Shown here: positions 57,465 through 64,000 of the stretch, piece by piece | Numbering within the stretch: the stretch's first letter is position 1 | Layout: each line of letters opens with the position of its first letter | Assembly: GCA_001304015.1 (NCBI GenBank) | Contig: LJUY01000001.1 | Span: 62,001 to 126,000, forward strand | DNA from: a candidate division Zixibacteria bacterium SM23_81 | Lineage (GTDB): Bacteria > SM23-81 | Length of the DNA stretch: 64,000 bases | Reading direction: 5' to 3' | Notes under the pieces: generated by a model | What the model saw: the letters and a program-made list of their open reading frames with translations, nothing else | What the model was told of the DNA's origin: nothing | Databases searched by the model: none | Translations under genes and position numbers: made by a program

Positions 57465-57502
57465 ACCAAATCCTCTTATGATAAGGGCTTAGGAGAATAC
57501 AG

Positions 57503-57576
57503 TACCCCCGGCCCGACTCGAACGGGCGACACAGGGATTAGGAATCCCTTGCTCTATCCGCCTGAGCTACGGGGGC
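57503..57576 (-). tRNA. tRNA-Arg(CCU)
   Basis: A full cloverleaf reads on the - strand: acceptor GCCCCCG with CGGGGGU, T8-A9, the D arm GCTCAGGCGGATAGAGC, the anticodon arm AGGGA-TTCCTAA-TCCCT with anticodon CCU, and the T arm GCCCG-TTCGAGT-CGGGC. The discriminator base is A. The acceptor stem begins with a G1-U72 wobble and no CCA is encoded. The tRNA reads AGG arginine codons. Confidence 0.95.
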
Positions 57577-57644: not shown

Positions 57645-57702
57645 GTCTTTTTTTACCCCTCTCCCCTATTGTGATGAACAATCAACTTGATTCACACTGC
57701 GA

Positions 57703-57743
57703 GTAAATTGAAATAGAAAAGGGGCTATGACAAACTTAGCCCC
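57703..57743 (-). repeat. 41-bp repeat copy 1, terminator-type hairpin downstream of a relic gene
   Basis: This copy reads GTAAATTGAAATAG on the + side, then the hairpin GGGGCTA (57721-57727) with TAGCCCC (57737-57743). On the - strand the stem is followed by a T run, so it functions as a terminator for leftward transcription. It matches a second copy at 58948-58988 at 38 of 41 bases. Confidence 0.8.
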
Positions 57744-57815
57744 GATGGTATGGTATGATAAAAAGGGCGGATGCCAAAGGTTGGGCTCCATAATCGGTAG
57801 ATAGACGTTCGCTCC

Positions 57816-57956
57816 TCAAAATATACTTAACGCCACTCGCTTCCAGCCTGCATTTGTATTGATGTACACGTGGTTATCATCCCAAGCTATATCTTTCACA
57901 TTTCCATTTGTTTCGCCTGTTCCTTTGGGATCAATCCCCCAGTGGTTTGAGTTCAA
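57816..57956 (-). pseudogene. Relic C-terminal fragment of a surface/structural protein
   Basis: A 46-codon frame on the - strand, starting only at TTG, encodes an end resembling the C-termini of tail-fibre-like and other large structural proteins, with the pattern GNVKDIAWDDNHVYI, then WKRVAL and a stop. It overlaps the stop of the neighbouring lipoprotein gene by 26 bases, and an in-frame stop blocks further extension. Its 3' flank, including the terminator, is homologous to the 3' flank of the large surface-protein gene at 59054. It is probably the remaining end of a deleted paralogue, not a functional gene. Confidence 0.6.
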
Positions 57957-58377
57957 ACGTCAAAAGGGCTATAAGAACACACAGCCCAATTCCTAGGGCA
58001 GATGTTCCTAGAATACAGCCGATAGTTCTCCCTGCGTCAATTTTCTTGACTTTAACATAGCTAATATCGTTGAGTTTGATTTCCACATCTTTGGCATAGT
58101 ATTTTTCCACTCTTTCGGCATAGCCTCTAACTTGATAAGGACTAACGGATGTAGTATCTCGGATAGTCCCCTGAATAACTTGCTCTTCGGCGAAAAAAAC
58201 TCCCCCTGGTGCCTCAAAATTGATTTCCTCTCCTGAAGTAACCTTTGCAGCAAGGATTTTTTTCTGCGGTTGCCTCTTTAGTTCGTCTGGGGTGATAAGC
58301 ACGACGCTGGAACAACCGAGAATACCGTTAAGCAATGCTAAAAGCGTAATGACAGCAATTATTTTTTTAGTAGTCAT
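57931..58377 (-). CDS. Small lipoprotein of unknown function
   Basis: The 148-residue precursor has a lipoprotein signal (ITLLALLNGILGC, near residues 10-22) followed by a beta-rich domain (about residues 25-115) with GGVFFAEEQVIQGTIRDTT, where SHLD-type strands alternate with charged turns, and a hydrophobic C-terminal helix (TIGCILGTSALGIGLCVLIALL, about residues 118-139). A second membrane anchor at the C-terminus is odd for a lipoprotein. No family is recognised. The start has a strong AAGGAGGG site, and a promoter lies about 120 bases upstream. Confidence 0.7.
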   Translation of the reverse strand: MTTKKIIAVITLLALLNGILGCSSVVLITPDELKRQPQKKILAAKVTSGEEINFEAPGGVFFAEEQVIQGTIRDTTSVSPYQVRGYAERVEKYYAKDVEIKLNDISYVKVKKIDAGRTIGCILGTSALGIGLCVLIALLTFELKPLGD

Positions 58378-58499
58378 GATGAATCCCTCCTTTTCAGCAA
58401 ATTATGCGAAAACTCCTGCAGCACCTCTTAAGATAAAACTCTAAATGGCCATTAGCTGAATATCATTGATGTGGAGATACTGTTACTTTAGGCAAATTA

Positions 58500-58528
58500 A
58501 AAGTACTAAGAATTCTCAAATATGTCAA
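58500..58528 (-). promoter_or_regulatory. Promoter for the small lipoprotein gene
   Basis: On the - strand TTGACA (58528-58523) and TACTTT (58505-58500) are spaced by 17 bases. The transcript would carry a leader of about 115 bases before the ATG. Confidence 0.65.
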
Positions 58529-58947
58529 GAAATATCAAAATTCTTTATTATCACAATCAATCAAAAACTATTCAAACAGGGTATGATCCTATGACGCTAC
58601 TACCGCTCGGTAACCCCTACCGGGGAGTCATTTTCTGCGGTCAAACCAGATTTTATCCTTTCCTCCAACAAAAGCTGCGCTATGTGTGACGAAATTTGAT
58701 CGAGGATTAGATATGATTCACTTATAAAAAGAAAAAAAAGCACAGACCCTAAAAAAAGCCCTTGTAAGTCATTTATATAAGGCCAAAATTAGGCGATTTT
58801 TAGGAAATGTATACTTTACCATGGGGAATTGAAAAACAAGTTGCAAATATTGCGTAACACCGTGATATCAAATATTATAGCAAAATTAATGAATCACACA
58901 AAATGTAAATAAAAGTGCCTCAGAATCCATCTCAGAGGGTCACGCGG
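58529..58947. other. AT-rich intergenic stretch without a recognisable gene
   Basis: This AT-rich region has no plausible coding frame on either strand. The only structure seen is a pair of short palindromes near 58602-58625 (ACCG-CT-CGGT and CGGTA-ACCCC-TACCG, then CCCC-TACC-GGGG), which could form alternative hairpins. I see no tRNA, no insertion-sequence ends and no known riboswitch. Confidence 0.6.
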
Positions 58948-58988
58948 GTAAATTGAAATAAAAAAGGGGCTATGAAAAACATAGCCCC
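58948..58988 (-). repeat. 41-bp repeat copy 2, terminator of the 735-residue surface-protein gene
   Basis: The hairpin GGGGCTATG...CATAGCCCC (58966-58988) has a T run on the - strand and lies about 65 bases after the stop of the large gene. It differs from copy 1 at three positions. Its outer flank (GTAAATTGAAATA) is also shared, so the repeat is more than a terminator stem. Confidence 0.85.
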
Positions 58989-59053
58989 ATCAAAAGGCAG
59001 ATACCAGAGCTTAGGGTCCAGAGGTGACAGTGCCAGTGGACTAGCTTTAACAA

Positions 59054-61261
59054 CTACCAGCAAGCTTGCCATATAGCCCCATCATAGACCATAAGCTTGT
59101 GAGTGACGCTGTCCATGTACATATCACCTTCCGCTGGGCTGGCAGGAGCAGATGATCTGGGTTCCAATCTCATTACATCATTGATATGCAATGCTCTCGC
59201 AGGCCTCGTCGTTCCAATACCCACATTCCCCGACACGGTGGAATGCAAATTGTTCCCCGAGATGGCCCAGTTGCCGACGTCACTCTTGGCAGCTTGCCAG
59301 CTGAGCGTGCCGCTGCCATCAGTCACAAGCAATTGTCCGTTGGACCTATCGGAAGCGGGAAACTCGTATCCATCGGTCTCATCGCCAAAGCGGATATGGG
59401 GCATATCGACCATAAAGGTTGAATCCTGAGTCAGCTTGCTCCCGATGCCAAAAAGATAGGAGTAATCTGCGGCAGCAGTGATGCTATCTTGATATCCTCC
59501 GAGGATTGCTGAATATGCACCTCCAACATAATTTCCACCTCCACCACCCACGGTGGCCCTACTACCGATGGCGGTGCTGTAACCTCCGCCGCCCACCGTC
59601 GCATATTGGCCGCTGACGGTGTTGCCCTTTCCGCCTCCTACGGTTGCATAGCTGCCGCCAGCGGTGTTTAAATGTCCGCCGCCCACGGTACCGGCTTCAT
59701 TGAACACGGTGTTACCTCCACCGCCGCCCACGGTCGCATAATCATCGCCGGCGTTATTGCCAGATCCGCCGCCCACAGTCGCCGAGAAGCCAGCGGCGTT
59801 GCCATAACCGCCACCGACAGTCGCACCGTTGTGTCTGGCGATGTTGCCTAACCCCCCGCCAACAGTACAGTACCTAGTAGTAATAATTGTATTCCCGGTG
59901 GTGCAGGCAACTCCTAAATTGATATGGGTATGAACACTATCACCAAACAGCATGTTACCGGCGTCACCACGGGCAACGCCGAGATAGTTAGCAGTAAACA
60001 GAACGCTATCCGGAGTGCCTCGAACCCAATCATTGTCAGTTGCTGAAGCCGAAGGGGTTTTCCAAGTCCCCTCACCCAAGGCATCGGAAGTCAACACATA
60101 ACCATCAGATGCACCCGTGGGCATCTTGAAGCCTTCCATCCGCACTGTTCCAGCCACATCCAGCTTCTCCGCCGGGTCTAGGGTTCCCAGGCCCACCTTG
60201 CTGGTGGAAAAATTGCCATAGATCAACACATCGCTAGTATCCGGTCCATTAGCGATGTAGAGCTTGCTGGAATCGGTCTCATTGTATCCGGCTTGATAGC
60301 CCAGGAAGACATTGCCGACACCAACCTGGTTGGAGTTGCCTGCATAGGTTCCCAGGTAAGTGTTCTCACTGCCCGTGGTGTTTAAGAGACCTGCTCCCCC
60401 TCCAATGAATGTGTTGTTATTGCCTTCGGTGTCAAAATAGCCTGCGATGGTTCCTAGGTACGTATTGATCGAACCTGTTGTGTGGTACTTGCCCGCCCCC
60501 CGACCCACGAAGGTGTTGTCGTTGCCTTCATTGTTTTCACCGGCTCCGAAGCCCACAAAGGTTTCGTTGCTTCCGGTATTGTTTTCTCCAGCACCAGCGC
60601 CCACGAGGACATTACCTGTACCCTCAGTGGAGAGAACTGTTTCTCCGCCGATCTTGTAAACCGAATTGATGTTGATGTCCCCGCTGACATCCAGTTTAGC
60701 CACAGGTGCAGTGATCCCGATGCCCACGGAATCAGTGTCCGTCTCCAGTCGCACGACAGTTCCATCATCGACCCATCCTCCGCTACCTCCACCACTCCGG
60801 GCATAATCTGCGCTATCCGCCTCAGCTGCCCAGAAGGCATACCCCACCGATGCGATCCGCTGCCGGGGAACCAGCTCCGGATCGCCACCTACCTGAACGC
60901 CCAGCCAACGAACAGGCTCGCTGAAAACTGTGTCCGGGATGCTATTCACACTACCCAATAGAACATTGAAAATGCCACTGCTCACCACCACCGCTGGCTG
61001 GGTTTCCGTCCATAAAGCAGTCCCTCCTACAGAAAGTGGGTAAATAGAAAAGGTCATGGAGACGGTGGTGTCCAGTGCCACACCGAATTCATCCGTGAGG
61101 GTGCCCTGATAGTTGATCAGGCCGGGGACGCCCTGGGATAAGTCCAGGTTGCGAGCGCCGTCATCAAGGCTCACCATCTTCCTGGCCGCCTGGGCAGTGG
61201 AGCAGAGAATGCAGATCAAGACAGCCAGAACCATGTTCATCGCAAGATTCCTCACTCTCAT
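59054..61261 (-). CDS. Large secreted protein with YadA-head-like and 17-residue repeats
   Basis: The 735-residue precursor has a signal peptide (cleavage near STAQA). The N-terminal domain (about residues 45-150, PGLINYQGTLTDEFGVALD and FNVLLGSVNSIPDTVF) is shared with the next gene. It is followed by SVGIGITAPVAKLDVSGDININS, a run of about seven 17-residue repeats (NTFVGxGAGxxxxTGxx, about residues 215-325) and, from about 455 to 590, eight repeats of about 14 residues with the ATVGGGxGNxA pattern, like the Hep_Hag/YadA head. It ends MVYDGAIWQACW without a membrane-anchor barrel. The protein is likely exported and surface-associated. Confidence 0.87.
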   Translation of the reverse strand: MRVRNLAMNMVLAVLICILCSTAQAARKMVSLDDGARNLDLSQGVPGLINYQGTLTDEFGVALDTTVSMTFSIYPLSVGGTALWTETQPAVVVSSGIFNVLLGSVNSIPDTVFSEPVRWLGVQVGGDPELVPRQRIASVGYAFWAAEADSADYARSGGGSGGWVDDGTVVRLETDTDSVGIGITAPVAKLDVSGDININSVYKIGGETVLSTEGTGNVLVGAGAGENNTGSNETFVGFGAGENNEGNDNTFVGRGAGKYHTTGSINTYLGTIAGYFDTEGNNNTFIGGGAGLLNTTGSENTYLGTYAGNSNQVGVGNVFLGYQAGYNETDSSKLYIANGPDTSDVLIYGNFSTSKVGLGTLDPAEKLDVAGTVRMEGFKMPTGASDGYVLTSDALGEGTWKTPSASATDNDWVRGTPDSVLFTANYLGVARGDAGNMLFGDSVHTHINLGVACTTGNTIITTRYCTVGGGLGNIARHNGATVGGGYGNAAGFSATVGGGSGNNAGDDYATVGGGGGNTVFNEAGTVGGGHLNTAGGSYATVGGGKGNTVSGQYATVGGGGYSTAIGSRATVGGGGGNYVGGAYSAILGGYQDSITAAADYSYLFGIGSKLTQDSTFMVDMPHIRFGDETDGYEFPASDRSNGQLLVTDGSGTLSWQAAKSDVGNWAISGNNLHSTVSGNVGIGTTRPARALHINDVMRLEPRSSAPASPAEGDMYMDSVTHKLMVYDGAIWQACW

Positions 61262-61330: not shown

Positions 61331-64000
61331 CTATATCTTCTTGACAGTAGAAAGCAGGTTGCCATCCAGATCACGAAACTCGCCATCCTCGGGCAGATAG
61401 ACCTCGAAGCGCTTGTCCTGGCCGTTCCAGAACAACACCGCCCCGTTTTGCTTGTCCTCAGGCACCTCCTCAGCGACTCGGTCGATGATGGCCGCTCTGG
61501 ATTCCTTATTGTAGAGCACATAAGGGGGGTCGTTGCCACCGACGCTGGTCAGCTTGCCGGTGCAGTAGATATTTCCAACGACGTGGAGCTCTTGTGTAGG
61601 CACCATCGTCCCGATGCCCACCTTGCCGGTTGAAAAATCGCCGTATATCAACACATCGCTGTTATCTTTGTCATTGGCGATGTAAAGCTTGTTGGAGCCG
61701 GTCTCATAATATCCTGCCTTATGGCCGACAAAGACATTGCCCGTGCCCGTAATGTTGGAATAGCCCGCATGTCGTCCCAGGAATGTGTTGTCAGAGCCGG
61801 TGGTATTTTTATAGCCGGAGGCGGAGCCCAGGAATGTGTTGTCAGAACCCTCGGTGTTGGAATAGCCTGCGGCCTGCCCCAGGTATGTGTTGGAACCGCC
61901 GGTGCTATTGCTGTAGCCCGCACGCCGTCCCACAAAAACGTTGTCCCCGCCTTGGTTGTTCAACCCGGCAGAGGCTCCCACAAAAGTCGCATACCCTCCT
62001 GTATTATTCCCCCCGGCACCGGCGCCAACGAACACGTTCTGTGAGCCCTCGGTGGAAAGCACAGTACTGCCGCCGATCTTATAGAGAGAATCGGTGTTGA
62101 CATCTCCGTCGACATCGAGCATGGCAGAAGGACTGGTGGTCCCGATGCCCACCTGGCCGGTTGAAAAATCGCCGTAGATTAAAACGTCGCTTGCTCCTGA
62201 ACCATTGGCGATATAAAGCTTGTCTGAATCCGTCTCATTGTATCCAGCCTGAAAGCCGAGAAAGACATTGCCCTGGCCGGTGGTGTTTTCATGGCCGGCC
62301 TTATACCCGACGAATGTGTTTTCATCGCCTGTTTCGTTCCGGTAGCCGGCATCACTTCCAACGAATGTGTTGTAATACCCTTCGGCGTTGTAGATGCCTG
62401 CGGCGGTTCCCAGGAACGTGTTGCTGTTGCCTGTCTCGTTATTGTGGCCAGCGGACATTCCTACAAATGTGTTCGAATGAGCCGTGGTATTGTTGCAGCC
62501 AGCTTTATTTCCCAGAAATGTATTGTATTGTCCTGTCGTGTTGGCGAAACCTGTGTACAATCCTACGAATGTATTGAAACTGGCCCCGATGTTGTTGTAG
62601 CCTGCATACCCTCCAACGAACGTGTTTTCATTGCCTGTTTCATTCGAGTATCCCGAATATGGTCCTAAAAGGGTATTGTCGTTTCCGACAGTATTGGAGT
62701 ATCCTGCCTTATACCCTACGAAGGCGTTTTCATCACCTGTTTCATTCGAGTAGCCGGCATCACTTCCAACGAATGTGTTGTAATACCCTTCGGTGTTATA
62801 GAGACCTGCAGCGGTTCCCAAGAATGTATTGCTGTAACCGGTCTCATTACTGTGTCCAGCAGACATTCCTATAAATGTGTTGGAATGGGCTGTGGTATTG
62901 TCATGACCGGCGTTATTGCCCACAAATGTGTTGTATTCACCTGTGGTATTATCGAAGCCGGTATATGATCCAACGAATGTGTTGGAACTGGCCCCGATGT
63001 TGTGCAAGCCGGCAGCCCTTCCCACGAATGTGTTGTAATCGCCTTCGGTATTGTCTGAGCCGGCGGCACATCCTATGAAAACGTTGTTGCTACCCTGGTT
63101 GGTTTTTCCAGTCTGATATCCTATGAAGGTTCCATAGCTTCCAGTATTATTTAGCCCAGCGTCAACACCTGCAAAGACATTCTGTGTGCCCGGGGCGGAG
63201 AGCACCGGATTTCCACCTATTGTATAAAGGGAATCCGTATTGACATCTCCATTGACATCGAGCCTGGCCGAGGGGCTGGAGGTTCCAATGCCCACATTGC
63301 CATCTTGCTGAACGACAAAATCTGCCTCCCAGGAGCTGCCCCCATTCTCACTGGTAGCAACCGTAAAGATATTGTTGGAACCGGCACCGTCGGTGAACAT
63401 CAACATCTGCCGTTGAGTGCCGTCGTTACTGCCGATACCAATACCACCATAATCGATGTAATCTTTCCAACCCCCGCCACTATATGGAGTCACCTCCTGA
63501 ATCTCATATTTGGCCGCTCCGCTACCCATCCTCAAGGCCCCCTTGACTTGCAGTTTCGCCTGCGGGCTGGCCGTCCCGATGCCCACATTACCGGAAACGG
63601 CCGAATACATGTTGCTTCCCGCAATCGTCCAGTCCCCGTCGCTGGCGGCAGTAGCACTTCGGGCATACTCGGCCGTATCGGCCCCTGTGGCTCGAAAGGC
63701 ATAGCCCGCAGCAACAATGCGCTGTCTTGGCTCTAGCTCGGGATCGCTCTCTACCTGAACTCCCAACCAACGTGACACCCCGTTAAACACCGTGTCCGAA
63801 ATGGCGTTCACCCGACCCAGAAGGACGTTGAACAGTCCGTGGTCCACCTCAACTGCAGGCTGAGTCTCAGACCATACCTGAGTACCTCCGGTTGAGTCAG
63901 TATAGATGGTAAAGGTCATGTCAACGGTGGTGTCCAACGCCACGCCGTACTCGTCTGTGAGTATGCCCTGGTAGTTAATCATACCAGGCACATCTGCCAG
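61331..64000 (-). CDS. Large repeat-rich secreted protein, 5' end beyond the window
   Basis: The frame is open to the right edge, so the signal peptide is missing; about 890 residues are visible. It begins with the same N-terminal domain as the next gene (GMINYQGILTDEYGVALD, FNVLLGRVNAISDTVF), followed by VGIGTASPQAKLQV-type segments. It then has about 18 repeats of 17 residues in a first array (about 62219-63155) and about seven in a second (about 61690-62041), each NTFVGxxAGxxNxTGxx. Between arrays lies LYIANGSGASDVLIYGDF. The last 90 residues form a distinct domain (GGNDPPYVLYNKESRAAIID, WNGQDKRFEVYLPEDG). It has no recognisable outer-membrane anchor. Confidence 0.88.
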   Translation of the reverse strand: MADVPGMINYQGILTDEYGVALDTTVDMTFTIYTDSTGGTQVWSETQPAVEVDHGLFNVLLGRVNAISDTVFNGVSRWLGVQVESDPELEPRQRIVAAGYAFRATGADTAEYARSATAASDGDWTIAGSNMYSAVSGNVGIGTASPQAKLQVKGALRMGSGAAKYEIQEVTPYSGGGWKDYIDYGGIGIGSNDGTQRQMLMFTDGAGSNNIFTVATSENGGSSWEADFVVQQDGNVGIGTSSPSARLDVNGDVNTDSLYTIGGNPVLSAPGTQNVFAGVDAGLNNTGSYGTFIGYQTGKTNQGSNNVFIGCAAGSDNTEGDYNTFVGRAAGLHNIGASSNTFVGSYTGFDNTTGEYNTFVGNNAGHDNTTAHSNTFIGMSAGHSNETGYSNTFLGTAAGLYNTEGYYNTFVGSDAGYSNETGDENAFVGYKAGYSNTVGNDNTLLGPYSGYSNETGNENTFVGGYAGYNNIGASFNTFVGLYTGFANTTGQYNTFLGNKAGCNNTTAHSNTFVGMSAGHNNETGNSNTFLGTAAGIYNAEGYYNTFVGSDAGYRNETGDENTFVGYKAGHENTTGQGNVFLGFQAGYNETDSDKLYIANGSGASDVLIYGDFSTGQVGIGTTSPSAMLDVDGDVNTDSLYKIGGSTVLSTEGSQNVFVGAGAGGNNTGGYATFVGASAGLNNQGGDNVFVGRRAGYSNSTGGSNTYLGQAAGYSNTEGSDNTFLGSASGYKNTTGSDNTFLGRHAGYSNITGTGNVFVGHKAGYYETGSNKLYIANDKDNSDVLIYGDFSTGKVGIGTMVPTQELHVVGNIYCTGKLTSVGGNDPPYVLYNKESRAAIIDRVAEEVPEDKQNGAVLFWNGQDKRFEVYLPEDGEFRDLDGNLLSTVKKI
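62219..63034 (-). repeat. In-frame 408-bp tandem duplication inside the surface-protein gene
   Basis: Two adjacent blocks, 62627-63034 and 62219-62626, each encode eight 17-residue units and align unit for unit: xAGxxNIGAS, xTGFxNTTGxY, NxAGxxNTTAHS, MSAGHxNETGxS, TAAGxYNxEGYY, SDAGYxNETGDE, YKAGxxNT and a final variable unit. Divergence is moderate, so the event is not recent. Confidence 0.85.

Follow-up and report, generated by a model that had tools for sequence, protein, structure and literature searches.

The stretch analysed here, hereafter the window, comprises 64,000 nucleotides (C26:62001-126000) of a 3.07-Mb draft genome (G000) in 99 contigs with an estimated completeness of 92.6%. 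In it, a short open frame lies between a tRNA gene and a cluster of surface-protein genes, and the hairpin that follows this frame recurs behind the first intact fibre gene of the cluster. The locus therefore raises two questions: what the short frame is a piece of, and whether the repeated 3′ flank records a duplication of the neighbouring gene. The genes concerned are the following.

57502 to 57576, minus strand: tRNA-Arg(CCT), the conserved anchor of the island edge (ARAGORN, Rfam tRNA).

57816 to 57956, minus strand: 46-codon open frame, in which P10-F46 (57819-57929) is the C-terminal tip module of a phage-tail-like fibre protein.

57931 to 58377, minus strand: gene (open reading frame) of a 148-aa lipoprotein, adjoining the relic.

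59054 to 61261, minus strand: intact fibre protein of 735 aa, with a GIGTxxP stalk, NTFLG and ATVGGG head-type repeats and a tip ending in YDGAIWQACW.

61331 to 63991, minus strand: the cluster's second intact fibre gene, continuing beyond the end of the window.

The 46-codon frame, which ends in WKRVALSIF, opens just past an in-frame TGA and overlaps the lipoprotein reading frame by 26 nt. Its tip module follows the pattern NGNxGDIAWDDNxxYIKTxAGWKRxALSxF, directly before the stop codon. The frame has weak matches to phage tail proteins, the best PHROG match (E 0.004) covering the final 37 positions in the profile of a phage tail protein, and three phage matches to the tip likewise stop at the end of their coding sequences. 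An alignment-based scan retrieved tip matches from 15 GTDB genome loci and 21 viral contigs, the window's own record being left out of the species-genome scan. The best homologue is identical at 24/37 positions (65%, 56 bits), and the similarity lies far above that of shuffled sequences (z about 15-27). In all 25 homologous ORFs examined, from MAGs and viral contigs, the module is the very last part of the protein, with 0-3 codons between it and the stop, and it ends in WKRxALSxF/W. Most of these ORFs encode long fibre-type proteins, many with GIGT..PTAKLDV-like stalk motifs and some with NTFLG, motifs similar to those found in the two intact neighbouring fibre genes. Sequence searches of Pfam, NCBIfam and PDB with the 46-aa tail gave no match, and no other copy of this tip type, full-length included, was found in this genome, which is 92.6% complete and in which several contigs end inside fibre genes.

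In the window, the tip is preceded by the lipoprotein gene, and homology to fibre proteins stops at codon 10. Since the frame has no fibre body, it is a relic and not a fibre gene. An earlier note on this DNA had read the frame as the remnant of a lost surface-protein gene adjoining the lipoprotein gene, a reading borne out by the C-terminal position of the module in every homologue examined. The same note took the lost gene for a paralogue of the large neighbour, which was not supported: the two tips (WKRVALSIF and YDGAIWQACW) are unrelated. The point at which the body was lost can be placed closely.

57930 to 57933, no strand assigned: inferred breakpoint, where fibre homology ends at codon P10, next to the stop codon of the lipoprotein gene (57931-57933).

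Homologues carry a conserved GYDQLRLRTSYT (GYDQLRxRTSYT) ahead of the tip module, and the profile match to the window tip starts only at model position 16 of 52. Because this conserved stretch is missing from the window, the break is set at codon 10, at about 57930, at the lipoprotein stop. The repeats around the relic were then delimited as follows.

57699 to 57743, minus strand: left hairpin terminator copy (GGGGCTAAGTTTGTCATAGCCCC plus a T-run), from direct repeat, fold and genome search.

58944 to 58988, minus strand: right hairpin terminator copy, from direct repeat, fold and genome search.

58555 to 59027, minus strand: 473-bp unit of 3′ flank and intergenic sequence, duplicated at C26:127308-127780 with 81.8% identity.

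58558 to 58637, minus strand: upstream block of about 80 bp (TGACYCCCCGGYAGGGG..TATACCCTGTTTGAATAGTTTTGAT; also CCCCCGGCAGGGGTACC ... TATACCCTGTTTGAATAGTTTTGAT), before the promoter.

The likeness of two 41-bp terminator segments, noticed earlier, is confirmed: the direct repeat is identical at 41/45 positions (91%), and the 41-base pattern matches both copies in the 64-kb window, where shuffles of the window give an expectation of 0.00. Both copies fold on the minus strand as a GGGGCUA..UAGCCCC hairpin with a U-run (-12.8 kcal/mol, z -3.5 for the left; -17.0 kcal/mol, z -4.8 for the right), and in all copies the GC-rich stem is directly followed by a T-run, as in intrinsic terminators. They are not, as had been supposed, a pair. 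Searching the genome for the element retrieved three near-exact copies of the core, all in one cluster (C26:119703, 120948 and 127700), and a divergent copy on C19. The right and third copies lie in the 473-bp unit, which extends from the flank across the terminator into the region upstream of the next gene; at the left copy, only the end of this unit, about 100 bp, is present. The upstream block occurs in five copies (58558-58637 in the window; C26:126215, 127311 and 130069; C19:5461), ahead of the promoters of cluster genes, and is possibly a shared regulatory site. The suggestion that such repeats could support deletion does not account for this locus, and a deletion between the two 45-bp repeats is ruled out, as the break at about 57930 falls inside neither of them.

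The sequences adjoining the hairpins proved to belong to a larger element of about 95 nt, of which the window holds two imperfect copies.

57758 to 57790, minus strand: 3′ arm only of the element, 88% identical to C26:202156-202188 over 33 nt.

58993 to 59061, minus strand: degenerate copy behind the fibre gene, weak and shortened (17.8 bits, E 0.034).

That these adjoining flanks are alike had also been stated in the earlier note. The likeness is real, but pairwise it is weak: on the minus strand, 57758-57790 and about 58992-59018 agree by eye at about 19/26 positions with one gap, and BLAST aligns the two copies over no more than 49 bp. Further copies at C26:202156, C79:98807 and on C29 place the likeness beyond doubt, and the flank is also found behind other genes that lack the hairpin terminator. 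The left copy is without the 5′ arm and the internal hairpin and gives no full covariance-model match. As both copies in the window are degenerate, their membership of the family rests on the third and the genome-wide copies. The flank follows a 704-aa protein, 'VGEFD' proteins and fibres, which does not bear out its earlier interpretation as the duplicated 3′ end of a paralogue of the neighbour; it is a general gene ending and not the mark of a copy of the neighbouring fibre.

The element was defined by aligning full-length copies (model R1), and the model was later rebuilt (R2). It has 15 copies in this genome and two in the nearest relative (G001). Two more distant genomes yielded a single marginal match (E 0.2), and the rebuilt covariance model, run against 290 genomes, matched only these two and none of the 288 others. 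Examples of copies are C29:3510-3607, C29:5713-5812, C33:869-966 and C26:202161-202257 (loci L086-L103). The structure consists of a closed outer stem of 13 pairs, a short second stem and an inner CUUUCUC/GAGGAAG hairpin, together with a near-invariant unpaired ACCUCUGGAACC / ACCTCTGGAACC segment conserved across two genera. Standard pairs make up 88.7% of pair cells and 10 of the 28 pairs have changed on both sides, although copies within one genome are related and this covariation is less independent than the counts suggest. None of 500 shuffles reached these values, and slid registers were 41-55% paired. Every copy is oriented alike relative to the preceding gene, and 14 of the 17 begin 14-80 nt past its stop codon; 13 of these preceding genes end in a domain with a (V/C)GEFD signature, and four are of fibre type. 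A U-run often, but not always, follows the element, and its absence at L086 and L097 makes a role purely as a terminator less likely.

Four loci holding five copies gave no match in Rfam 15 up to E 0.5, and a narrow literature search found no comparable 3′-UTR motif; the element is apparently a previously undescribed structured RNA. From its sequence and placement, it is most likely an elaborate 3′ end or terminator, or a regulatory RNA of the 3′ UTR, a function that is predicted. More tentatively, it might constitute a new class of structured 3′-UTR RNA that fixes the 3′ ends or controls the expression of the secreted and surface repertoire, coordinating adhesins from their gene ends, perhaps via a ACCUCUGGAACC-binding protein, small RNA or metabolite. 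The contrary view, which takes the element for a mobile repeat (REP/MITE or integron attC) and not for a 3′-UTR RNA, would suit the numerous copies dispersed within one family, the imperfect palindrome, the position after genes and the relic of an integron integrase nearby. It appears unlikely, however, given the single orientation with respect to the preceding gene, the start mostly 14-80 nt past the stop and the lack of attC R boxes; moreover, one copy per gene, mostly after genes of the (V/C)GEFD domain, fits inheritance with the gene end. An attC identity in particular was rejected, the RYYYAAC and GTTRRRY end boxes being absent in 17/17 copies.

Taken together, a phage-tail-like surface-fibre gene would formerly have ended at 57.82 kb on the minus strand. 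Deletion or illegitimate recombination would have taken its body, joining the DNA of the lipoprotein stop codon to the last 37 fibre codons at about 57930. What would be left of the gene is its tip codons, the 3′ arm of the structured 3′-UTR element and the hairpin terminator. We consider it probable, with good confidence, that the relic at 57.93 kb arose in this way, by loss of the fibre body from a tip and ending that stayed behind, and that its flank is the common ending of many secreted and surface genes rather than a recent duplication of the neighbour's. The data show directly that the tip is homologous and C-terminal, that the break is abrupt, and that the terminator and the element family exist. 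As no relative with the undeleted gene was found, we infer the deletion of the fibre body itself from one genome, and the tip could also have been truncated already when it arrived by recombination.

Other origins of the tail were considered. It might be an orphan cassette, a silent spare tip that could recombine into fibre genes, comparable to orphan toxin tips or silent pilin cassettes: an intact fibre gene whose 3′ end is similar lies just upstream of the relic, the fibre proteins are modular with varied tips, and for the MAT fibres of Bdellovibrio diversification by exchange of tips is proposed (PMC10769870). However, tip switching requires homology upstream of the tip, where an unrelated lipoprotein gene stands here; no fibre gene in this genome has a tip of the WKRVALSIF type, and the conserved first part of the module is absent, which makes a cassette improbable. 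An assembly artefact joining two real loci is conceivable in a draft of 99 contigs and 92.6% completeness in which several contigs end inside fibre genes and a 473-bp unit is repeated. We hold this to be quite improbable, since the repeat copies differ by 18%, the junction itself lies outside any repeat, and the contig continues into tRNA-Arg, TPR and LeuRS genes in the order of the nearest relative. An independent small gene, the conserved frame against which the earlier note had set its own reading, can be dismissed as highly improbable despite a 47-codon open frame with a possible TTG start, because each homologue examined is the C-terminus of a longer ORF, homology starts only at codon 10, and the frame, which lacks an evident ribosome-binding site, runs into the lipoprotein gene and is not present in G001-G003.

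If the tail is indeed the leftover of a fibre gene, it would now belong to the transcript of the lipoprotein. The lipoprotein gene has, as read from the sequence, a good ribosome-binding site (AAGGAGGG before ATG), and, likewise read from the sequence, TTGACA-17-TACTTT upstream of it; the promoter scan did not list the latter because its second hexamer is poor. The gene is absent from G001-G003, and no relatives were found in viral contigs and plasmids. Its sole detected homologue (G175) is 27% identical, has 537 aa and runs on with SCPYVYSWDGNQYVFDAEPY. The 148-aa protein may be either short by nature or truncated. The transcript would include the 46 codons, for which no translation start is evident, and stop at the left hairpin, which is likely its terminator now. 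The leftover fibre end would thereby serve as the 3′ UTR of the lipoprotein gene, with an inherited terminator that insulates the tRNA-Arg gene.

The relic lies at the edge of an island, 240-380 bp from the tRNA-Arg. The order LeuRS/TPR/tRNA-Arg is common to this genome and its nearest relative, where the LeuRS end, the TPR protein, the tRNA-Arg and apt follow one another without interruption, tRNA-Arg and apt being about 240 nt apart. In this genome, apt is located at about C26:149020, and the intervening ~29 kb (C26:119577-149020; window 57577 onward) consist largely of surface and lipoprotein genes. This island is absent from the nearest relative, and the full-length paralogue that the earlier note proposed to look for in this interval was not found there; neither was the lipoprotein gene, apt directly following the tRNA-Arg. 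The island may be a gain in this genome or a loss in the nearest relative. Inspection of its far edge for a matching repeat revealed nothing of note, and Rfam scans detected tRNAs only, apart from sub-threshold chance matches. In the more distant relative G002, a fragment of a XerC-like tyrosine recombinase directly adjoins the tRNA-Arg (L068:105-386). Within the island, just outside the window, lies the relic of an integron integrase (L017:10049-10243, minus strand; about C26:127050-127240), after which come the ORF of a small lipoprotein and, at about L017:9483, a stretch that resembles attC (CCTAACAGGTCGTTGAAGCCGAC). It comprises the C-terminal 46 residues of the integrase (TIGR02249 positions 270-315 of 315, E 2.2e-15), so left-behind gene ends are not unique to the 46-codon site.

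About 30 related fibre loci are spread across the genome, with repetitive stalks and varied C-termini by sequence. Contigs C17, C23, C26, C40, C47 and C51 end inside fibre genes, and the repertoire is therefore probably under-assembled. The 735-aa fibre protein has a weak match to Bdello_MAT_N, below the cutoff. Five of the seven fibre paralogues tested match positions ~3-76 of 162 of this profile with 27-34 bits (curated cutoff 60), two of the five also matching YadA-type adhesin repeats; the remaining two showed no similarity to it.

The locus suggests how a repertoire of phage-like surface fibres may erode, the body of a gene being lost while its tip and transcription end are kept and then taken over by the next gene. 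The fibre relic is ordinary, and the ~95-nt RNA element is the more interesting result. The repeat noticed at the outset is part of a structured RNA, specific to the family, that sits at the ends of many genes for secreted proteins and may be new; if the element regulates them, it would provide a common 3′ control point for the surface repertoire of this bacterium.

Among known systems, the tip most closely recalls the tip modules of phage tail and virion proteins (phrog_17312; tail proteins of cyanophage S-TIM and Klebsiella phages), which have the same GDIAxDxxYxYxC/K..xxWKRxALS ending at the stop, whereas the copy in the window is detached from any fibre body. The fibre family resembles the MAT fibres of Bdellovibrio (PMC10769870; NCBIfam NF053851), whose trimeric beta-prism stalks carry variable adhesive tips, in the long repeat stalks, the varied C-terminal tips and the large repertoire, and perhaps in the conserved, beta-rich N-terminal domain of ~130 aa past the signal peptide. 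It differs in an N-terminal similarity of no more than 27-34 bits (cutoff 60) and in the YadA-type head repeats of some members, and the relic retains the tip alone. With integron attC sites, the element shares an imperfect palindrome soon after ORFs and an integron-integrase relic in the vicinity; in contrast to them, its copies are dispersed singly, not in arrays, and have no R boxes at their ends. Like intrinsic terminators and structured 3′-UTR RNAs, it places a stable stem past the stop codon, mostly followed by a T-rich stretch, but it is much longer than an intrinsic terminator and carries an inner hairpin and the near-invariant unpaired ACCUCUGGAACC.
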